Program-made: the position numbers and the translations under genes
Origin: a virus
DNA: 36,311 bases
Reading direction: 5' to 3' (one strand)
IMG/VR virus record: IMGVR_UViG_3300042485_000814
Coordinates: 1 to 36,311 of that record
The notes under the pieces: model-generated
Database searches by the model: none
What the model saw: the letters and a program-made list of their open reading frames with translations, nothing else
What the model was told of the DNA's origin: nothing
In this document: positions 18,181 through 36,311 of the stretch, piece after piece
Numbering within the stretch: position 1 is the first letter of the stretch
Layout of the letters: every line of letters begins with the position of its first letter

Positions 18181-18193
18181 TTGAAATAAATAA

Positions 18194-18214
18194 GGGGCGG
18201 TAAAGCGCCGCCCC
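18194..18214 (+). promoter_or_regulatory. GGGGCGG hairpin, copy 2
   Basis: GGGGCGG (18194-18200) pairs with CCGCCCC (18208-18214) around TAAAGCG, a 7-bp all-GC stem 14 nt after the stop at 18180. No T-run follows (TCTCACAC). It could be a weak or factor-assisted terminator, a processing site or an mRNA 3' cap. Confidence 0.65.
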
Positions 18215-18236
18215 TCTCACACTAATAGAAACAAAC

Positions 18237-21265: not shown

Positions 21266-22012
21266 ATGAATAATTACAAATTAGAACCAATGGTGAAGCA
21301 TAGTAACCAAGTTCACACGACAACCGATTACTTTTTGTTTAAGCCAATAGACGGCAATCGAAACAAAAACCTCTTACACATCAACAGGCTAAAAAAATCA
21401 ATGAATCAAAACTATTTGTTTACGGTAATTATTGTAAACGAAAAGTATGAGATTATTGATGGGCAGCATCGGTTTGAAGTAATACAGGAATTACAGCTAC
21501 CATTGCATTACATTATATGTTCCGGATATGGTCTCACCGAGGTGCATATACTCAATGCAAATTCAAAGACTTGGAACGCTGACGACTACTTAGAGGGCTA
21601 TTGTAAATTAGGATATAAAGACTATTTGATATTTGCTGATTTCAAACATAAATATCAGATAGGGCACAATGAGTGTATTTCATTGTTATCTAATTGGTCA
21701 TACTCTAACAGCGACAATACAAAAGAATTTTATGAGGGAAAATTTAAGGTAAAAAATTTAATGCTTGCAGAAGAGTATATTGAAAAAATATTAATGATTG
21801 AGCCGTATTATGCTGGCGTTCGTAGGCGAGCATTTGTTGGAGCGATGCTGCAACTATTCAGCAATAAAAACTTTGAGTTTACTGAGTTTTTGCAAAAGCT
21901 AAAAACGCAACCTACCGCTTTACAGGATTGCACCAGCGCAAGCAATTATAAGGTTCTTATTGAAGAGATTTACAACTATCGCAGGCGCGAAAAGGTTAAT
22001 CTTCGGTATTGA
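21266..22012 (+). CDS. ParB/Srx-like nuclease-fold protein (248 aa)
   Basis: IIDGQHRFEVIQEL (Asp65-Arg69) is the ParB/sulfiredoxin-fold signature, followed by PLHYIICSGYGLTEVHILNAN. The C-terminal 130 residues are helical and probably contact DNA or a partner. Such proteins bind or nick DNA, or use nucleotides, but the target here is unknown. The gene is much more A+T-rich than its neighbours and sits right before the structured RNA, so it may be an acquired unit. A 48-nt gap precedes it. Confidence 0.7.
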   Translation: MNNYKLEPMVKHSNQVHTTTDYFLFKPIDGNRNKNLLHINRLKKSMNQNYLFTVIIVNEKYEIIDGQHRFEVIQELQLPLHYIICSGYGLTEVHILNANSKTWNADDYLEGYCKLGYKDYLIFADFKHKYQIGHNECISLLSNWSYSNSDNTKEFYEGKFKVKNLMLAEEYIEKILMIEPYYAGVRRRAFVGAMLQLFSNKNFEFTEFLQKLKTQPTALQDCTSASNYKVLIEEIYNYRRREKVNLRY

Positions 22013-22021
22013 TTTATTTTG

Positions 22022-22029
22022 TATATTTG
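22022..22029 (+). promoter_or_regulatory. -7 promoter box (TATATTTG) of the structured RNA
   Basis: TATATTTG sits 9 nt after the stop at 22012 and 2 nt before the first stem of the folded element. No TTG is found at the usual distance, so the match is to the -7 box only. Confidence 0.6.
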
Positions 22030-22031
22030 AG

Positions 22032-22144
22032 CATTCGGTCGTGAGAACCCGAATGAGTTAAAAACATTTTAAGCCCTTTGGGGGCTGCGAGGCAAGGGTA
22101 AAACCAAGCCGTTCTCACCGCAGCCATCAAAGGGCATTTTTTTT
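22032..22144 (+). ncRNA. Structured small RNA or attenuator leader with possible pseudoknot
   Basis: Four helices can coexist. A: CATTCGG (22032-22038) with CCGAATG (22049-22055). B: GCCCTTTG (22073-22080) with CAAAGGGC (22128-22135). C: GGCTGCG (22083-22089) with CGCAGCC (22119-22125), stacked inside B across a 2x2 loop. K: the loop of A, GTGAGAAC (22041-22048), is perfectly complementary to GTTCTCAC (22111-22118), which abuts helix C. K would make a loop-to-hairpin pseudoknot. Eight T residues follow, then the ATG of the replication gene. No known RNA family is recognised. Confidence 0.7.
22073..22144 (+). terminator. Intrinsic terminator or attenuator directly before the start codon
   Basis: Helices B and C give 15 Watson-Crick pairs, and the outer stem is followed by A then eight T (22137-22144). 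The T-run abuts the ATG at 22145, so termination would stop transcription just before the replication gene, and the same stem would mask its translation start on readthrough RNA. Confidence 0.65.
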
Positions 22145-22783
22145 ATGAGAAAATCATTTATACTATACAGCGATATTTACGACACGCTTCAGCATTTAAC
22201 CGATGAACAGCTCGGTAAATTAATGCGAATGATATTTGAATATCAAACCAGCGGCAAGAAACCTGAAACAAATAACCCTTTATTTATTGCATTTGGTTTC
22301 ATTAAATCGAGCTTAGATAGGGATGGAGTAAAGTATGAGCAACGAGCCGAAAGGTCGCGTGAAAACGGCGCTAAAGGAGGCAGACCAACTAAAAACCAAT
22401 TAGGTAAAAATGAAACCCAAAAAACCCAGCGGGTTATTTCAAAACCCAAAAAACCTGATAGTGATAGTGTAAGTGATAGTGTAAGTGATAGTGTAAGTGA
22501 TAGTGTTAATGTAAATGCTAATGCTAACTTTAAGAAGTGGAGCGAGCAAGATTTGATTGAGTCAATGACTGCATACAAGGATAGATACCCTAAGGAACTC
22601 CTAAATGCTTTCTTTAACTATTGGACTGAGCCGCTTGCGAATGGTAGGATACGCTTAACCTCTCAAGATGCTTGGGATACTGGTCGCAGGTTGGTTACTT
22701 GGAATAAACGCGATAAGGATAAACAACCAGCGAACGCAGCACCAACAAAGACACGCGCCTCGATGGGCGTTAAGATGGAATAA
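22145..22783 (+). CDS. Replication protein (DUF6291-like), possible helicase loader
   Basis: The N terminus FILYSDIYDTLQHLTDEQLGKLMRMIFEYQTSGK is the DUF6291-type domain found in phage replication proteins. ENGAKGGRP follows near residue 77, then a low-complexity linker (DSVSDSVSDSVSDSV) encoded by 12-bp repeats. The C-terminal part (FKKWSEQDLIESMTAYKDRYPKELLNAFFNYWTEP ... WDTGRRLVTW) is like the end of phage DnaT/DnaC-type loaders. Two genes later comes DnaB, supporting a role at the origin or in loading. Expression may depend on readthrough of the RNA element ending at its ATG. Confidence 0.65.
   Translation: MRKSFILYSDIYDTLQHLTDEQLGKLMRMIFEYQTSGKKPETNNPLFIAFGFIKSSLDRDGVKYEQRAERSRENGAKGGRPTKNQLGKNETQKTQRVISKPKKPDSDSVSDSVSDSVSDSVNVNANANFKKWSEQDLIESMTAYKDRYPKELLNAFFNYWTEPLANGRIRLTSQDAWDTGRRLVTWNKRDKDKQPANAAPTKTRASMGVKME
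22457..22510 (+). repeat. In-frame 12-bp tandem repeat
   Basis: GATAGTGTAAGT occurs three times perfectly (22463-22498), flanked by a half unit and a degenerate fourth unit (GATAGTGTTAAT). Each unit encodes Asp-Ser-Val-Ser, so gain or loss of units keeps the frame and changes only the linker length. Likely to vary among related phages by slippage. Confidence 0.9.
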
Positions 22784-23070: not shown

Positions 23071-23088
23071 GGGGCGGCTAACCGCCCC
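23071..23088 (+). promoter_or_regulatory. GGGGCGG hairpin, copy 3
   Basis: GGGGCGG (23071-23077) pairs with CCGCCCC (23082-23088) around CTAA, a 7-bp stem 12 nt after the stop at 23058 and 12 nt before the helicase ATG. CAACTTTACC follows, no real T-run. Confidence 0.65.
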
Positions 23089-23099
23089 AACTTTACCGC

Positions 23100-24488
23100 A
23101 TGACCTCAATCCCTAAAATCGAACAAGCCCTCATGTTTCTTTGCCTTAACGGCGATGATAACTATAAGGAAATAGCGCCGCAGCTTATTGATGAACACTT
23201 CTCAGACGATACAGCACTCAAAGCCTTTAAGGTCATTAATGCCATAATGAAGGACGGCAAGCAGCCGACATTCGTTACATTCGGCAAATATGCATTAACC
23301 GAAAAAACACTCACGGCTAATGAGATTGCCAGCGTTACCCAATGGGGCAATGAGTTGAGTTACTCAGAGCCGATCAATGAGTACATCAGCATTCTCAAAG
23401 ATGAACACATCAAACGCAATATAAACCACATACTAACCGAAGAGGCACTCGGATTAGGTAAGCTAAAGAGCGGCGGTGAAACAGCCGTTAACATCATCAA
23501 GCGCCTCAACACCCTAATCGAGAATGGCAGCCCTACCGATAACATCATAACAACACTTCAGCTCACCCACGAAGAGCGGCAAGCATACTACCGCCGCGCT
23601 GCATTGCACCAAAGCGGCAAAACGAGCGGATTGAATACCGGCATCGCAGCACTTAACCGATTCACCGGAGGCTTCCATCCCGAGCTTATAATCTTAGCAG
23701 GCAGACCATCGATGGGTAAGACTGCCCTCGCATTGTACCACGCCTGCCAGTTCAATGAGCCGGGCATCTACTTCAACCTCGAGATGAATCAAAGCCAGCT
23801 CTGCCAGCGGCTCATACTTCAGCATGCGAACGATGCGATTAACAGCGCACGCCTACGCGATGGGAACCTATCGCAGCCCGAGCTACACGCATTTGAAACC
23901 ACGATCGGATTAGTTGAGAAGCTACCCATCACAATCTACGATAAACCGCGCTGTGGGGTGCATGAGGCAATACGCATAATGCGGCGCGAAGCACGTAAGA
24001 ACAATTGCAAATGGGCAATCATTGACTATCTTCAGCTGATGACGATAGAGGGCTTCAGAGGCGGTAATCGCGAGGCTGAGGTTGCAGAGATAAGCCGAAC
24101 ATTGAAAGCCGCACAAAAAGAGTTAAACATTCCAATAATCGCACTTGCTCAGTTAAGCAGGCAAGTCGAGCAACGCGCCGATAAAAGACCGATACTCTCA
24201 GACCTTCGCGAATCGGGAAGCATCGAACAGGATGCCGACACGGTTATGTTCGTATATCGACCTGAATACTACGGATTGAATGATGAAGCTGGCAACCCTT
24301 ATAGCTCCGATGTATTTTACCTGTTCGAAAAGCATCGGCAAGGTTCAACCGGTGAGGTACGCTTTAAGCATAACAGCACCCTCACGAGCTTTCACGATAA
24401 TGGCTCGAGTGGTGGCAGTACCTTCCTTCCGGTCGAGACGAAAGCAATGCAGACGAATGAAAGTTTTGATATAAGCCCCTTCAAATGA
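23100..24488 (+). CDS. dnaB: Replicative DNA helicase, DnaB family
   Basis: A 462-residue protein of the usual DnaB length and layout. It has an N-terminal helical domain (about 1-100), a linker, then a RecA-like motor with Walker A GRPSMGKT (201-208), Walker B region CKWAIIDYLQLM, and ALAQLSRQVEQRADKRPILSDLRESGSIEQDAD, the classic DnaB motif with the arginine finger region. It unwinds DNA ahead of the fork as a hexamer. No DNA polymerase or primase gene is present, so the phage probably recruits the host replisome. Confidence 0.95.
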   Translation: MTSIPKIEQALMFLCLNGDDNYKEIAPQLIDEHFSDDTALKAFKVINAIMKDGKQPTFVTFGKYALTEKTLTANEIASVTQWGNELSYSEPINEYISILKDEHIKRNINHILTEEALGLGKLKSGGETAVNIIKRLNTLIENGSPTDNIITTLQLTHEERQAYYRRAALHQSGKTSGLNTGIAALNRFTGGFHPELIILAGRPSMGKTALALYHACQFNEPGIYFNLEMNQSQLCQRLILQHANDAINSARLRDGNLSQPELHAFETTIGLVEKLPITIYDKPRCGVHEAIRIMRREARKNNCKWAIIDYLQLMTIEGFRGGNREAEVAEISRTLKAAQKELNIPIIALAQLSRQVEQRADKRPILSDLRESGSIEQDADTVMFVYRPEYYGLNDEAGNPYSSDVFYLFEKHRQGSTGEVRFKHNSTLTSFHDNGSSGGSTFLPVETKAMQTNESFDISPFK

Positions 24489-32752: not shown

Positions 32753-34749
32753 AAATTAAATTCCTTATCGACAACCTCGACCGAGGCCAGCCGCTTAACC
32801 CTGAGGACTTCGGCATCAATATTACCACGGACGATAACATCGGAGCCCGCATTGTATCGTTCGATAGTGATTTAACTTTTGGCGGTGATGTGTTCAATTA
32901 CCTATACACTAAGCTCGAGACATCAGGATACTGCGAGCTTGTGCGTGTGAGCGTGCAATACCTTTGCAACTCGGGTACCTGGGAGAAGTTGGTCGATGGC
33001 TATATCATTGTTACAGAATCGAACTTTTTGCTCGATAGATGCCAAGTAAAGACTAAGCTCTACGATGAAACATTCAGTACCAAGATTAACAACAACAAGA
33101 GCATCCCATTCTCGCTGTCCTTATCCGCATCAAAGAACGGCACATCGATAACGCCGCCAGTAATGCGGAGGCTTGACATATTCAACCCGCCCACCGGAAC
33201 CTATGAAGCGCAGTTCGCATACGGCTACGCGCTTTATGATGTCTTCCAGCATTTGATTAATTGCATGAGCGATGGCTTGATTGACTTTGATTCAAACTTC
33301 TTTGCATACACCTATCCCGATGCGAGCTTGCCAGTATACACGCAAGGCAATGTGCTAAGACAGCGACAGCCATTCGAGATGACTGCGACTTTCGAGAAGC
33401 TATATCTCGCAATGAAGCAAAAGGTCAACCTCGGCATCGGCTTCGAGAAGCAAGCCAATGGCAGACCATTGCTACGCATCGAGCCGATTTCATACTTCCA
33501 GCAATCGGGCGCATCGGCTAACCTTTACGATCAGCCGGAAATTGAGATGAGGTTCGACACCACTCGGCTGTATGCCGCTGTGGACTTTGGCTCTGACCCA
33601 TTCCTCGAACAGGCTGAGTGCGATGGTGGCAATACTGCATGCACGTTTGTGCAAACGCCATTCAGAGGATTCAGGATTGAGACATTCGGATTCATTGGCG
33701 AATGCAACACATCGAACGTGCTTAATGTTAAGAGCGGCGATATCATATTCGATGCCAACGTAATTGAGGATGTGATTCGCTTTGCATCGCCGAGCTATGA
33801 CCTAAACAACTTCATCATTCAGTCGAGTTATAGTGCATTCTACACGCCGAACGGATTTATCGCGATTCCATTCGACCCTTATACAATTGGGCAGACGATA
33901 TACAACGGGCTTTATAGAAATATTAATGTTTCAGCGAATTGGTTGAGCGGCTATCCCAATAGCTTATTCAGTTTCTTGAATGCGCCATTCACGCCATCAC
34001 AAGCAGCTTGCGAGGTAAGGATTGCAGGAGTACCAAATAATCCAGTATTTGATGCTAATGACACTACAACCGAATCATATTTCTCAATGAACGGTGTTTA
34101 TATTCCGTTTGGAGATGAGTTTAATGACCCTAATAATTTATTTTCAGGAGATTCTTACGTATGCCCATTTGCAGGGCTTTACACTGTTACATTACAATTA
34201 ATTCGAGGTAATGGTATTGACCCACTTGTAGGCAATGTGACAAATTTCTGTTCAATAGTTCGTCGCGATTCAAACGATACATTTATTTCTGAAACACCAT
34301 CATTCCCACCGCTTACGCAAACATATCCATCATTTTCATTGGTTACGGTTACAACATCATTTGTATGCAATCAAGGCGATAAGATAAGCGCAAATTTTTA
34401 CGCATTGGTTCAAAATGGCATAAATATACCTATAAGGATTGCCAGTACTTTTGGCGGTCAAAATAGCTACATGGACATCACAGCCGTTCCATTAAACGCG
34501 AACAACCCAGACCAAGACCTCGACCCAGTCAATATCGACGATGTGCAAGCCTACCTATATAAGTTCAAGCGACCGCTGACGATGGCAGAGATTAACGCCA
34601 TCACAAGCGAGACATCAAAGCCGATACAACTCGGTCGCAGGGATGACAGCCTTGCCGTGATTGATACCTACATTAAGAACATTCAGATTGAGTCAGTGAT
34701 GCGCAAGGCCGCGCAATTCGAACTACGTTCAAACAAACTACTTCCATGA
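32743..34749 (+). CDS. Large tail protein after tape measure (668 aa)
   Basis: Overlaps the tape measure stop by 10 nt. The N-terminal 300 residues are alpha/beta with DDNIGARIVSFDSDLTFGGDVFNYLYTKLETSG and WEKLVDGYI. The middle (about 380-590) is more beta-rich and its DNA (about 33900-34480) is more A+T-rich, like an inserted or exchanged domain. Location fits a distal tail or tail-tip baseplate-hub protein. No enzymatic motif is seen. Confidence 0.6.
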   Translation: MAVEIKFLIDNLDRGQPLNPEDFGINITTDDNIGARIVSFDSDLTFGGDVFNYLYTKLETSGYCELVRVSVQYLCNSGTWEKLVDGYIIVTESNFLLDRCQVKTKLYDETFSTKINNNKSIPFSLSLSASKNGTSITPPVMRRLDIFNPPTGTYEAQFAYGYALYDVFQHLINCMSDGLIDFDSNFFAYTYPDASLPVYTQGNVLRQRQPFEMTATFEKLYLAMKQKVNLGIGFEKQANGRPLLRIEPISYFQQSGASANLYDQPEIEMRFDTTRLYAAVDFGSDPFLEQAECDGGNTACTFVQTPFRGFRIETFGFIGECNTSNVLNVKSGDIIFDANVIEDVIRFASPSYDLNNFIIQSSYSAFYTPNGFIAIPFDPYTIGQTIYNGLYRNINVSANWLSGYPNSLFSFLNAPFTPSQAACEVRIAGVPNNPVFDANDTTTESYFSMNGVYIPFGDEFNDPNNLFSGDSYVCPFAGLYTVTLQLIRGNGIDPLVGNVTNFCSIVRRDSNDTFISETPSFPPLTQTYPSFSLVTVTTSFVCNQGDKISANFYALVQNGINIPIRIASTFGGQNSYMDITAVPLNANNPDQDLDPVNIDDVQAYLYKFKRPLTMAEINAITSETSKPIQLGRRDDSLAVIDTYIKNIQIESVMRKAAQFELRSNKLLP

Positions 34750-36311
34750 GCTACACATCGATACCAAACCAACCGATAATATTTAGCAGCACATTGCCCG
34801 AGGTATGCGATGGATGCGGCTCTGAGTTCGCGCAGCTTGCCGACTTCAACGATCAACTATTCTGGCAGCTCGAAGCAGGGCAGTGCGGTTACCTGCGATT
34901 CAATGAAATTATACTTGTCAATGATGCGAATGTTGATGGCTTTGATATAACCTTTCCCGGCAGCAATGACGATACCGCACTTGTTGCATATACCTTCTTC
35001 AAGTTCATCAACTGCCTCGAGTATAAGCTAACAATCACAATCAATACAGGCGCGGTGGGTACGTTAATCGTGGGCTTTACCAATGGTGATTCGGTGAACA
35101 TCAGCGCGGTGGGTACCCATGTAATTTACCTGAAGGCTACCGACATCCCTGCGAATACTAACAGCAATATTCAGGATTTGTTTATTGGCACTAACACAAC
35201 CGTGCAAGAGTTCATTGGAAGCGTTACCATTGATGACTTCCAGCCCAACTGCAACGGCGCGTTATTCGCGGGCATCGTTGATGCTACAACGCTGGCTGTG
35301 GTGCAAGTGCTCGACCCAGTACTAACAACGAAGGACCAATACCTCACGGCGGGCATTGCCTTGGCTGATTACGACCTTGAGCCGGGCTGCTATCGTTTAG
35401 CGATTGCGGACTTCTGCACCAACACATGCGGGCAGTATTACATTTACAATCCGTACTTCAACGATTGGGGCGGGTGTATCGATTGCCCGCCGCTTGGCTG
35501 GAGTAGCGTGGCGGTAACTGGCAGCGATACCTGGAACATCGGCGGCGGCGAGGCGCAGATTGACCTAACGGTGTTAGGAAACTCGACAAGCCTTGAGTCG
35601 ATTACCGAGCTATGCGAGGACACGGATTACTATGTGACTATTGAAGTGGATTCGATTGCCAATGCACGGCTACGGCTTCAGGTCGATGGGGTTAACTACG
35701 CCACAGCCATAAGCGCAGCGGGAACTTATAACTTCACGATAACAGTAACGCAGTCCGGAGCATTGAGCCTACTCGGTTCGCAGTTCGGCGCTTCGCTCAA
35801 TGGCGAGATAACGGTTAAGCGTATCACGGTGCGAGCTGATAAGAACTGGGCGAAGTATGACAAGTACAGCGACCTGATTCAGATTGGTGACTTCACGGAT
35901 GAATGCCGCTTCTTTAAGATTGAAGGCTGCAATGGCGAGAATCAATTCGGGCTGGGCTTCAGCGGCACATCATTCTTGCCGGGCATCCGATTGGAAGGGC
36001 GAAGATTCCAGCCGCAATACGATACCGATACCGACCTCTTTAGATACGCATCGGGCAGATGGCAGGCGAGCTTTGTAGACCGCAAAAAGAAACTCAGCTA
36101 TCACTTCGGGCGCTTGCCTGAGTACGTGCTCGACTTCCTCTCGATTGTTTTCTACTTCGATAACTGCTATGTGAATGGTGAGCTATCCTTCCCAGCCGAC
36201 AATGAATTTCCGACCATCGAGTATGACAATGCCGATGACCTTGGCAGCTTGACAATCGAGCTGTATAAGAAGAAGGAGAAAGTGCGCAAGACCGTATGTG
36301 TTGGCGTGGAT
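34746..36311 (+). CDS. Tail protein, N-terminal part (3' end cut by window edge)
   Basis: The ATG overlaps the previous stop (ATGA) and the frame stays open for 522 codons to the window end. Residues 281-522 are about 95% identical in DNA to the fragment at the window start, so the full protein should be about 557 residues. The N-terminal half is new: PEVCDGCGSEFAQLADFNDQLFWQLEAGQCG, then beta-sandwich-like repeats rich in Asn, Thr and Val, with two similar stretches (about 47-150 and 240-345) that may be duplicated carbohydrate-binding-like domains. Probably tail tip or receptor contacting. Confidence 0.75.
   Translation, partial: MSYTSIPNQPIIFSSTLPEVCDGCGSEFAQLADFNDQLFWQLEAGQCGYLRFNEIILVNDANVDGFDITFPGSNDDTALVAYTFFKFINCLEYKLTITINTGAVGTLIVGFTNGDSVNISAVGTHVIYLKATDIPANTNSNIQDLFIGTNTTVQEFIGSVTIDDFQPNCNGALFAGIVDATTLAVVQVLDPVLTTKDQYLTAGIALADYDLEPGCYRLAIADFCTNTCGQYYIYNPYFNDWGGCIDCPPLGWSSVAVTGSDTWNIGGGEAQIDLTVLGNSTSLESITELCEDTDYYVTIEVDSIANARLRLQVDGVNYATAISAAGTYNFTITVTQSGALSLLGSQFGASLNGEITVKRITVRADKNWAKYDKYSDLIQIGDFTDECRFFKIEGCNGENQFGLGFSGTSFLPGIRLEGRRFQPQYDTDTDLFRYASGRWQASFVDRKKKLSYHFGRLPEYVLDFLSIVFYFDNCYVNGELSFPADNEFPTIEYDNADDLGSLTIELYKKKEKVRKTVCVGVD
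35585..36311. repeat. Right copy of near-identical terminal repeat
   Basis: Counterpart of 1-727, ungapped, about 95% identical by hand count. Only about six amino-acid changes arise from roughly 38 base changes (for example Val to Ala, Asp to Asn, Thr to Lys), so both copies have been under protein-level selection. Confidence 0.9.

Follow-up and report, generated by a model that had tools for sequence, protein, structure and literature searches.

Pseudoknotted, terminator-linked RNAs with covarying loops lie before replication genes of a group of phages

Introduction

In type III toxin-antitoxin systems, the ToxI RNA, a tandem-repeat pseudoknot RNA, is located together with a terminator directly upstream of the gene for the endoribonuclease toxin. 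Phage phi29 possesses a packaging RNA (pRNA) with complementary loops that vary together, and RNAs that prime or activate replication origins are known from phage c2 and, as RNA II, from ColE1. The c4 antisense RNA (RF01695) and the P4 CI immunity RNA are small phage RNAs that carry specificity segments and act on phage genes. The c4 RNA is listed in PMC2864571, and the same source describes the STAXI motif, a pseudoknot found near genes for DNA-handling proteins (PMC2864571). In plasmids of the IncI complex, a pseudoknot and an antisense loop compete, and a single change in the loop gives rise to a new incompatibility type (PMC10724649). Control of replication initiators by RNA is a plasmid classic, and the RNAs treated here would represent an independent and much diversified phage version of it. 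They were analyzed starting from a viral DNA of 36,311 nucleotides (IMG/VR record IMGVR_UViG_3300042485_000814, positions 1 to 36,311), referred to as the window throughout. Literature searches found no description of such an RNA.

Results

All parts of the element lie on the plus strand of the window. A -7 box, TATATTTG (22022-22029), can be read directly as a promoter element of the Bacteroidetes type TAnnTTTG. Behind it follows hairpin P1 (CATTCGG/CCGAATG, 22032-22038 paired with 22049-22055; whole hairpin 22032-22055), the loop of which contains the hypervariable 5' pseudoknot strand PKa, GTGAGAAC (22041-22048). Its partner is the 3' pseudoknot strand PKb, GTTCTCAC, situated between P4 and P3 at 22111-22118. 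An A-rich single-stranded linker (22056-22072), which is 17-20 nt long in the aligned homologues, leads from P1 to the terminator stem with its outer helix P2 (GCCCTTTG/CAAAGGGC, 22073-22080/22128-22135), helix P3 (GGCTGCG/CGCAGCC, 22083-22089/22119-22125) and the apical hairpin P4 (GGC/GCC, 22091-22093/22108-22110; whole hairpin 22091-22110). The T8 tract that forms the tail of the intrinsic terminator occupies positions 22137-22144. A preliminary description had listed the box, four helices, the T8 tract and the ATG behind it, and a base-for-base check of the sequence upheld every one of these coordinates. P4, a 3-bp helix in the window that extends to 6-8 bp in relatives such as L273, L296, L309 and L321, was absent from that description.

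These parts, from the -7 box through P1, the 8-bp pseudoknot and the nested rod of P2, P3 and P4 to the T8 tract, follow one another without interruption as a unit of ~112 nt. The nested fold has a free energy of -44.9 kcal/mol (z = -4.8), and none of 200 dinucleotide shuffles was equally stable. Judged from sequence and alignment, the pseudoknot has the proportions of the classic H-type; two loop bases precede PKa, none separates PKa from the 3' strand of P1, and PKb runs straight into the 3' strand of P3. The G+C-rich P2/P3 stem is followed by A and T8, as in an intrinsic terminator. The predicted transcript of the whole element (22032-22144) extends from ~22032 to the U-tract, with its start placed by the -7 box and its end by the U-tract. 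The compact unit reads as a self-contained RNA gene of ~112 nt with a promoter-like box on its 5' side and a U-tract terminator on its 3' side.

Use of the DUF6291 protein encoded downstream of the window RNA as query yielded 39 viral loci, and the RNA was present at every such locus with upstream sequence examined. The set was widened by a covariance model devoid of the pseudoknot and later by searches based on the neighboring DnaB gene. It comprises 51 distinct homologous sequences from related viral contigs, termed class A, a number that counts sequences and not independent events. In these homologues, 99.4% of 1634 pair cells were paired, the corresponding values being 89% for shuffles and 30-48% for slid controls, and double-sided compensatory changes occurred in 19 of the 33 pairs; the shuffled controls never matched the observed covariation score. 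The preliminary description had proposed covariation in all four helices as a check, and double-sided changes were indeed found, at four of the seven pairs in P1 (97.8% of cells paired), five in the pseudoknot and eight in P2 and P3 together. P2 occurs in GCCC(A/T)TTG-type variants, P3 in variants such as TTTACG/CGTAAA, and P4 covaries as well. All homologues have a T-rich tail, on this strand only.

Pairing of the pseudoknot was counted on alignments built blind to it. Every lettered PKa/PKb cell in the 51 sequences was Watson-Crick with zero G-U, whereas G-U pairs were common in P1, P2 and P3. The bases of the P1 loop pair downstream with compensatory changes, as expected of an H-type pseudoknot and as the layout proposed before had it. 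By these comparisons, no helix covaries more strikingly than the pseudoknot, and none is more variable. At least ten helix types occur, several of them in one metagenome (3300044695: GTGGAATC, GTCAGAGC, GTCGAAGC). A search of Rfam 15 over the window gave no match at gathering thresholds, the best at permissive settings (E = 0.14) being an unrelated microRNA model; together with the strong covariation this bears out the earlier proposal of a structured RNA outside the known families. The comparative evidence identifies the class A element as a structured RNA that is conserved and contains a pseudoknot. When the region was compared with named phages by BLAST, nothing useful was returned, and a search of 84,980 species genomes of bacteria and archaea with the class A pattern yielded neither a convincing homologue nor a class A prophage. 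Matches of the covariance model on the minus strand were rejected as mere reflections of the same site, which is palindromic.

In 40 upstream contexts that diverge from one another, the box TAnnTTT[G/A] keeps a constant distance to the RNA. Since T, A/T and TTT were set by the search pattern and the G was left free, independent support comes only from the constant place of the box and from the free G, which was present in 31 of the 40 contexts. A conserved -33 box was not found upstream of the RNA.

The replication-organiser gene (22145-22783, plus strand; DUF6291, Pfam PF19808, E = 6e-27) starts with its ATG 0 nt past the T tract, and a gene for a DnaB-type replicative helicase (23100-24488, plus strand; Pfam DnaB_C, E = 1.1e-78) comes next. 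The placement of the RNA at a replication gene, noted for the window, extends to its relatives: DUF6291 is located downstream of nearly every RNA homologue with DnaB following, all on one strand. The gene upstream of the RNA (21266-22012, plus strand) has a weak GmrSD_N/ParB-like match, and other genes take its place in relatives, among them those for a nuclease, methyltransferases and a lipoprotein. At the loci examined, the RNA begins 8-17 nt past the stop codon of the upstream gene. On its other side, the gap to the organiser gene is 0-9 nt as a rule, with a small or other ORF in between at some loci. The organiser is a mosaic in which the N-terminal and middle domains are swapped while the position of the RNA is kept, and the RNA is therefore better conserved than the protein. 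At locus L018, an RNA identical to that of the window precedes an organiser of only 51% identity; at L001, the organiser is 98% identical to that of the window and the pseudoknot type is different.

Several further observations concern the organisers and the contigs. The organisers of L016, L021, L015, L170, L193 and L156 combine varied N-terminal and middle domains with a common TRASMGVKME-like C-terminal tail. The RNA is present in a single copy per genome, except in one contig, IMGVR_UViG_3300044695_002763 (52,227 bases; L006, L288), which carries two DnaB genes and two RNAs of different pseudoknot types and possibly consists of two related phages joined in assembly. In the window, a perfect G+C-rich hairpin, GGGGCGGTTAGCCGCCCC, is present at 23071-23088, a few bases before the start of DnaB at 23100, and a second strong hairpin lies at 18192-18216. 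The protein encoded at 2-835 recurs at 34746-36311 with few differences (e.g. TELCEETDYY/TELCEDTDYY); the near-identical ends are probably the overlap of a circular genome whose assembly included strain variation.

In the cultured Cellulophaga phages phi13:2 and phi19:3, the gap that precedes DUF6291 measures 145 nt; its sequence is different, its logic the same. In order, it contains a -7 box, CTCTCACAA, the hairpin of a terminator with TTGTGAGAG in its loop, and a U-tract; the RNA is predicted to start just after TACATTTG and to end in the U-tract. A simple pseudoknot-terminator descriptor was run on 76 distant DUF6291 loci and 760 shuffled sequences. It matched 34 of the 76 loci, as opposed to 21 of the 760 shuffles, and did not match the other 42. 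In the largest new group, class B (ten sequences), 260 of 260 cells were paired and 21 of 26 pairs showed double-sided changes. Nested minimum free energy folds of the class B RNAs were not exceptional, since their key helix forms a pseudoknot, which cannot be combined with the hairpins in nested folding. Class C RNAs consist of P1 and terminator hairpins that pair over their entire loops, and their helices covary. The class A model picks up some of them weakly (E about 0.002-0.15), and the comparison hints at a common descent of classes A and C. Sequence comparison places class A in a larger group of phage RNAs; in each, a strand on the 5' side, in most cases a hairpin loop, forms base pairs with the terminator-hairpin loop.

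Classes beyond A, B and C were assigned by eye. A further variant precedes the DUF6291 gene of a Bacteroidota genome, likely in a prophage (L475:1300-1500), where AAGATTGACA forms base pairs with TGTCAATCTT, located in a long loop of the terminator. More pseudoknot-terminator variants before DUF6291, missed or scored differently by the descriptor and likewise recognized by eye, are those of L355/L356, L334, L331 and L390. A GTGAGA/GTCGAA strand motif recurs in the pseudoknots of several classes on opposite strands, class A having it in the 5' loop, class B and Cellulophaga (L323) in the loop of the terminator. In class C RNAs (e.g. L463:6221-6305), AGTA and GAA flank the hairpin of the terminator loop, similar to a bulged-G (loop E) motif. 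DUF6291 phages of gamma-proteobacteria have only a 54-nt gap at that place and no RNA.

In class C, the start codon of the replication gene is immediately preceded by 6-7 nt that repeat PKa and are complementary to PKb. Among five pseudoknot types, class C RNAs matched their own leader over 6-7 nt versus 4-5 nt for swapped types, and the match was seen with replication genes of several kinds downstream. Five leaders carried a GTGCAG copy without an adjacent RNA, and an RNA with GTGCAG/CTGCAC loops was therefore predicted elsewhere in those phages. The predicted CTGCAC-loop RNA was then found in L347, L348, L357 and L359, located 1.84 kb upstream past ORFs including one for a likely thymidylate synthase; the contig of L354 ends early and contains no such RNA. 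In phages of the L451/L457 type, the class C RNA is separated from DUF6291 by 1.84 kb and several genes, with the match to the start kept. In L448, PKa and PKb pair with one G-U, but the match between leader copy and PKb is perfect, which favors pairing of PKb with the leader over mere duplication. One class C lineage (L465, L470) has no start-site copy. Complementarity between RNA loop and initiator leader with covarying specificity is present in class C, and no target was found in classes A and B: for class A, searches with exact 8-mers in 15 genomes and in gene leaders gave results no better than swapped controls, and for class B nothing above control appeared at gene starts. Matches of PKb inside a PDDEXK gene (G011, G014, G015) were judged coincidental.

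Discussion

A pairing that changes often yet stays matched suggests an uncatalogued RNA switch on the copying of viral DNA, and the start-codon target favors, at least for class C, an RNA that regulates the replication gene by base pairing. We give about even chances to the proposal that locked kissing-loop/pseudoknot RNAs control the replication organiser, as antisense RNAs in class C and in cis in class A. The element would be transcribed as a compact RNA of ~112 nt, locked by the pseudoknot between P1 and terminator, and would set the output of the replication organiser downstream of it (DUF6291, then DnaB). In class C, PKb in the terminator loop, complementary to the ribosome-binding region, would act as antisense in trans, and PKa, carrying the sequence of the target, would mask PKb until displaced. 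For class A, control in cis is proposed because no start-site target was found and the start codon lies directly past the U-tract. The fold may decide between a stop at T8 and read-through, and translation may be limited by P2, a stem that lies 9 nt ahead of the AUG. The fast-changing, strictly matched pseudoknot would serve as an address, such that the RNA of each phage acts on its own kind only.

The position of the RNA at the gene start, the conservation of the U-tract on this strand and the spacing of 0-9 nt before the ATG, which leaves no room for another promoter, would also be expected of a pure cis attenuator. Here, pseudoknot and terminator would set read-through into DUF6291 by sensing a protein, translation or the state of RNA polymerase, with the terminated RNA as a mere by-product. 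We consider this explanation possible but doubtful, since the L451/L457-type class C RNA still matches the start of DUF6291 from a distance, no conserved antiterminator helix and no conserved leader peptide are present, and a sensor of a protein or ligand is not expected to have the most variable helix at its core. A leader-peptide attenuator was rejected because the start/stop pattern and the frames in the linker differ between relatives. Of the three functions raised in the preliminary description, the stand-alone RNA and the attenuator are both retained. The ligand-sensing leader is disfavored and the element was not accepted as a riboswitch, since the pseudoknot, which would have to serve as the binding core, varies more than any other part and no alternative (antiterminator) pairing or fold was identified.

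A transcript that primes or activates a phage origin near the replication genes would likewise always reside in the replication module and be retained while neighboring genes change. Such a role is nevertheless improbable, as the class C start-codon copies point to mRNA control and RNA and organiser gene can be separated by 1.84 kb. We also think it unlikely that the pseudoknot determines superinfection or incompatibility specificity or pairs with host RNA, with its main effect outside its own replication gene. The coexistence of several helix types in one metagenome, and the occurrence of identical RNAs before 51%-identical proteins and of different RNAs before 98%-identical ones, would fit; however, recombination alone could spread helix types. 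Finally, inverted repeats acting as double-stranded DNA or cruciform, for example at an origin, would account for a strictly Watson-Crick pseudoknot helix, but G-U pairs are common in the other helices, and the asymmetric U-tract, the promoter box and the interlocked topology point to RNA, making a DNA-level element highly improbable.

Returning to regulation of the organiser by base pairing, we suggest, as a tentative extension, a widespread, uncatalogued phage RNA superfamily with two locking, fast-evolving loops, in the 5' hairpin and the terminator hairpin of one transcript, the address code of which would amount to RNA incompatibility or immunity among lytic Bacteroidetes phages. If true, co-infecting phages with different loop addresses do not cross-regulate. 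The assignment to Bacteroidetes was made from the promoter type and from named relatives. The evolutionary signature, strict pairing combined with rapid change, is unusually clear, and several RNA classes missing from Rfam are added. The covarying start-codon copies make the target predictable from sequence alone and, with two cultured Cellulophaga phages that have such an RNA, there is a testable handle on the regulation of DNA replication in these phages.

Among the known systems, ToxI likewise combines a pseudoknot RNA with a terminator directly before a gene, but it is a tandem repeat before a toxin gene, whereas the phage RNA is a single unit before a replication organiser, with DUF6291 and then DnaB downstream; type III toxin-antitoxin identity was rejected accordingly. 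The phi29 pRNA is also a phage RNA with co-varying complementary loops. It differs in that the geometry of the RNA described here fits intramolecular pairing, the RNA sits in the replication module, and the terminase is of a different type, Terminase_6N. The c4 and P4 CI RNAs differ in structure and hosts and act on the leaders of other genes, and they gave no Rfam match here. STAXI resembles the phage RNA as a pseudoknot near DNA-handling genes but is a tandem-repeated short pseudoknot not linked to a terminator, and again the phage RNA had no Rfam match to it. In the IncI, IncK and IncB plasmids (RNAI/Inc RNA, repZ/repA leader), loop pairing decides on initiator synthesis and specificity resides in loop nucleotides, where few changes suffice for a new type, a likeness to the phage RNA (PMC10724649). 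There, the antisense RNA is encoded on the opposite strand and translation is turned on by the pseudoknot, while the phage RNA lies on the same strand as the target gene at every locus and carries both complementary loops on one terminator-ended sense-strand RNA. By analogy, and without claiming homology, initiator control in IncI-complex plasmids appears to be the closest functional parallel.
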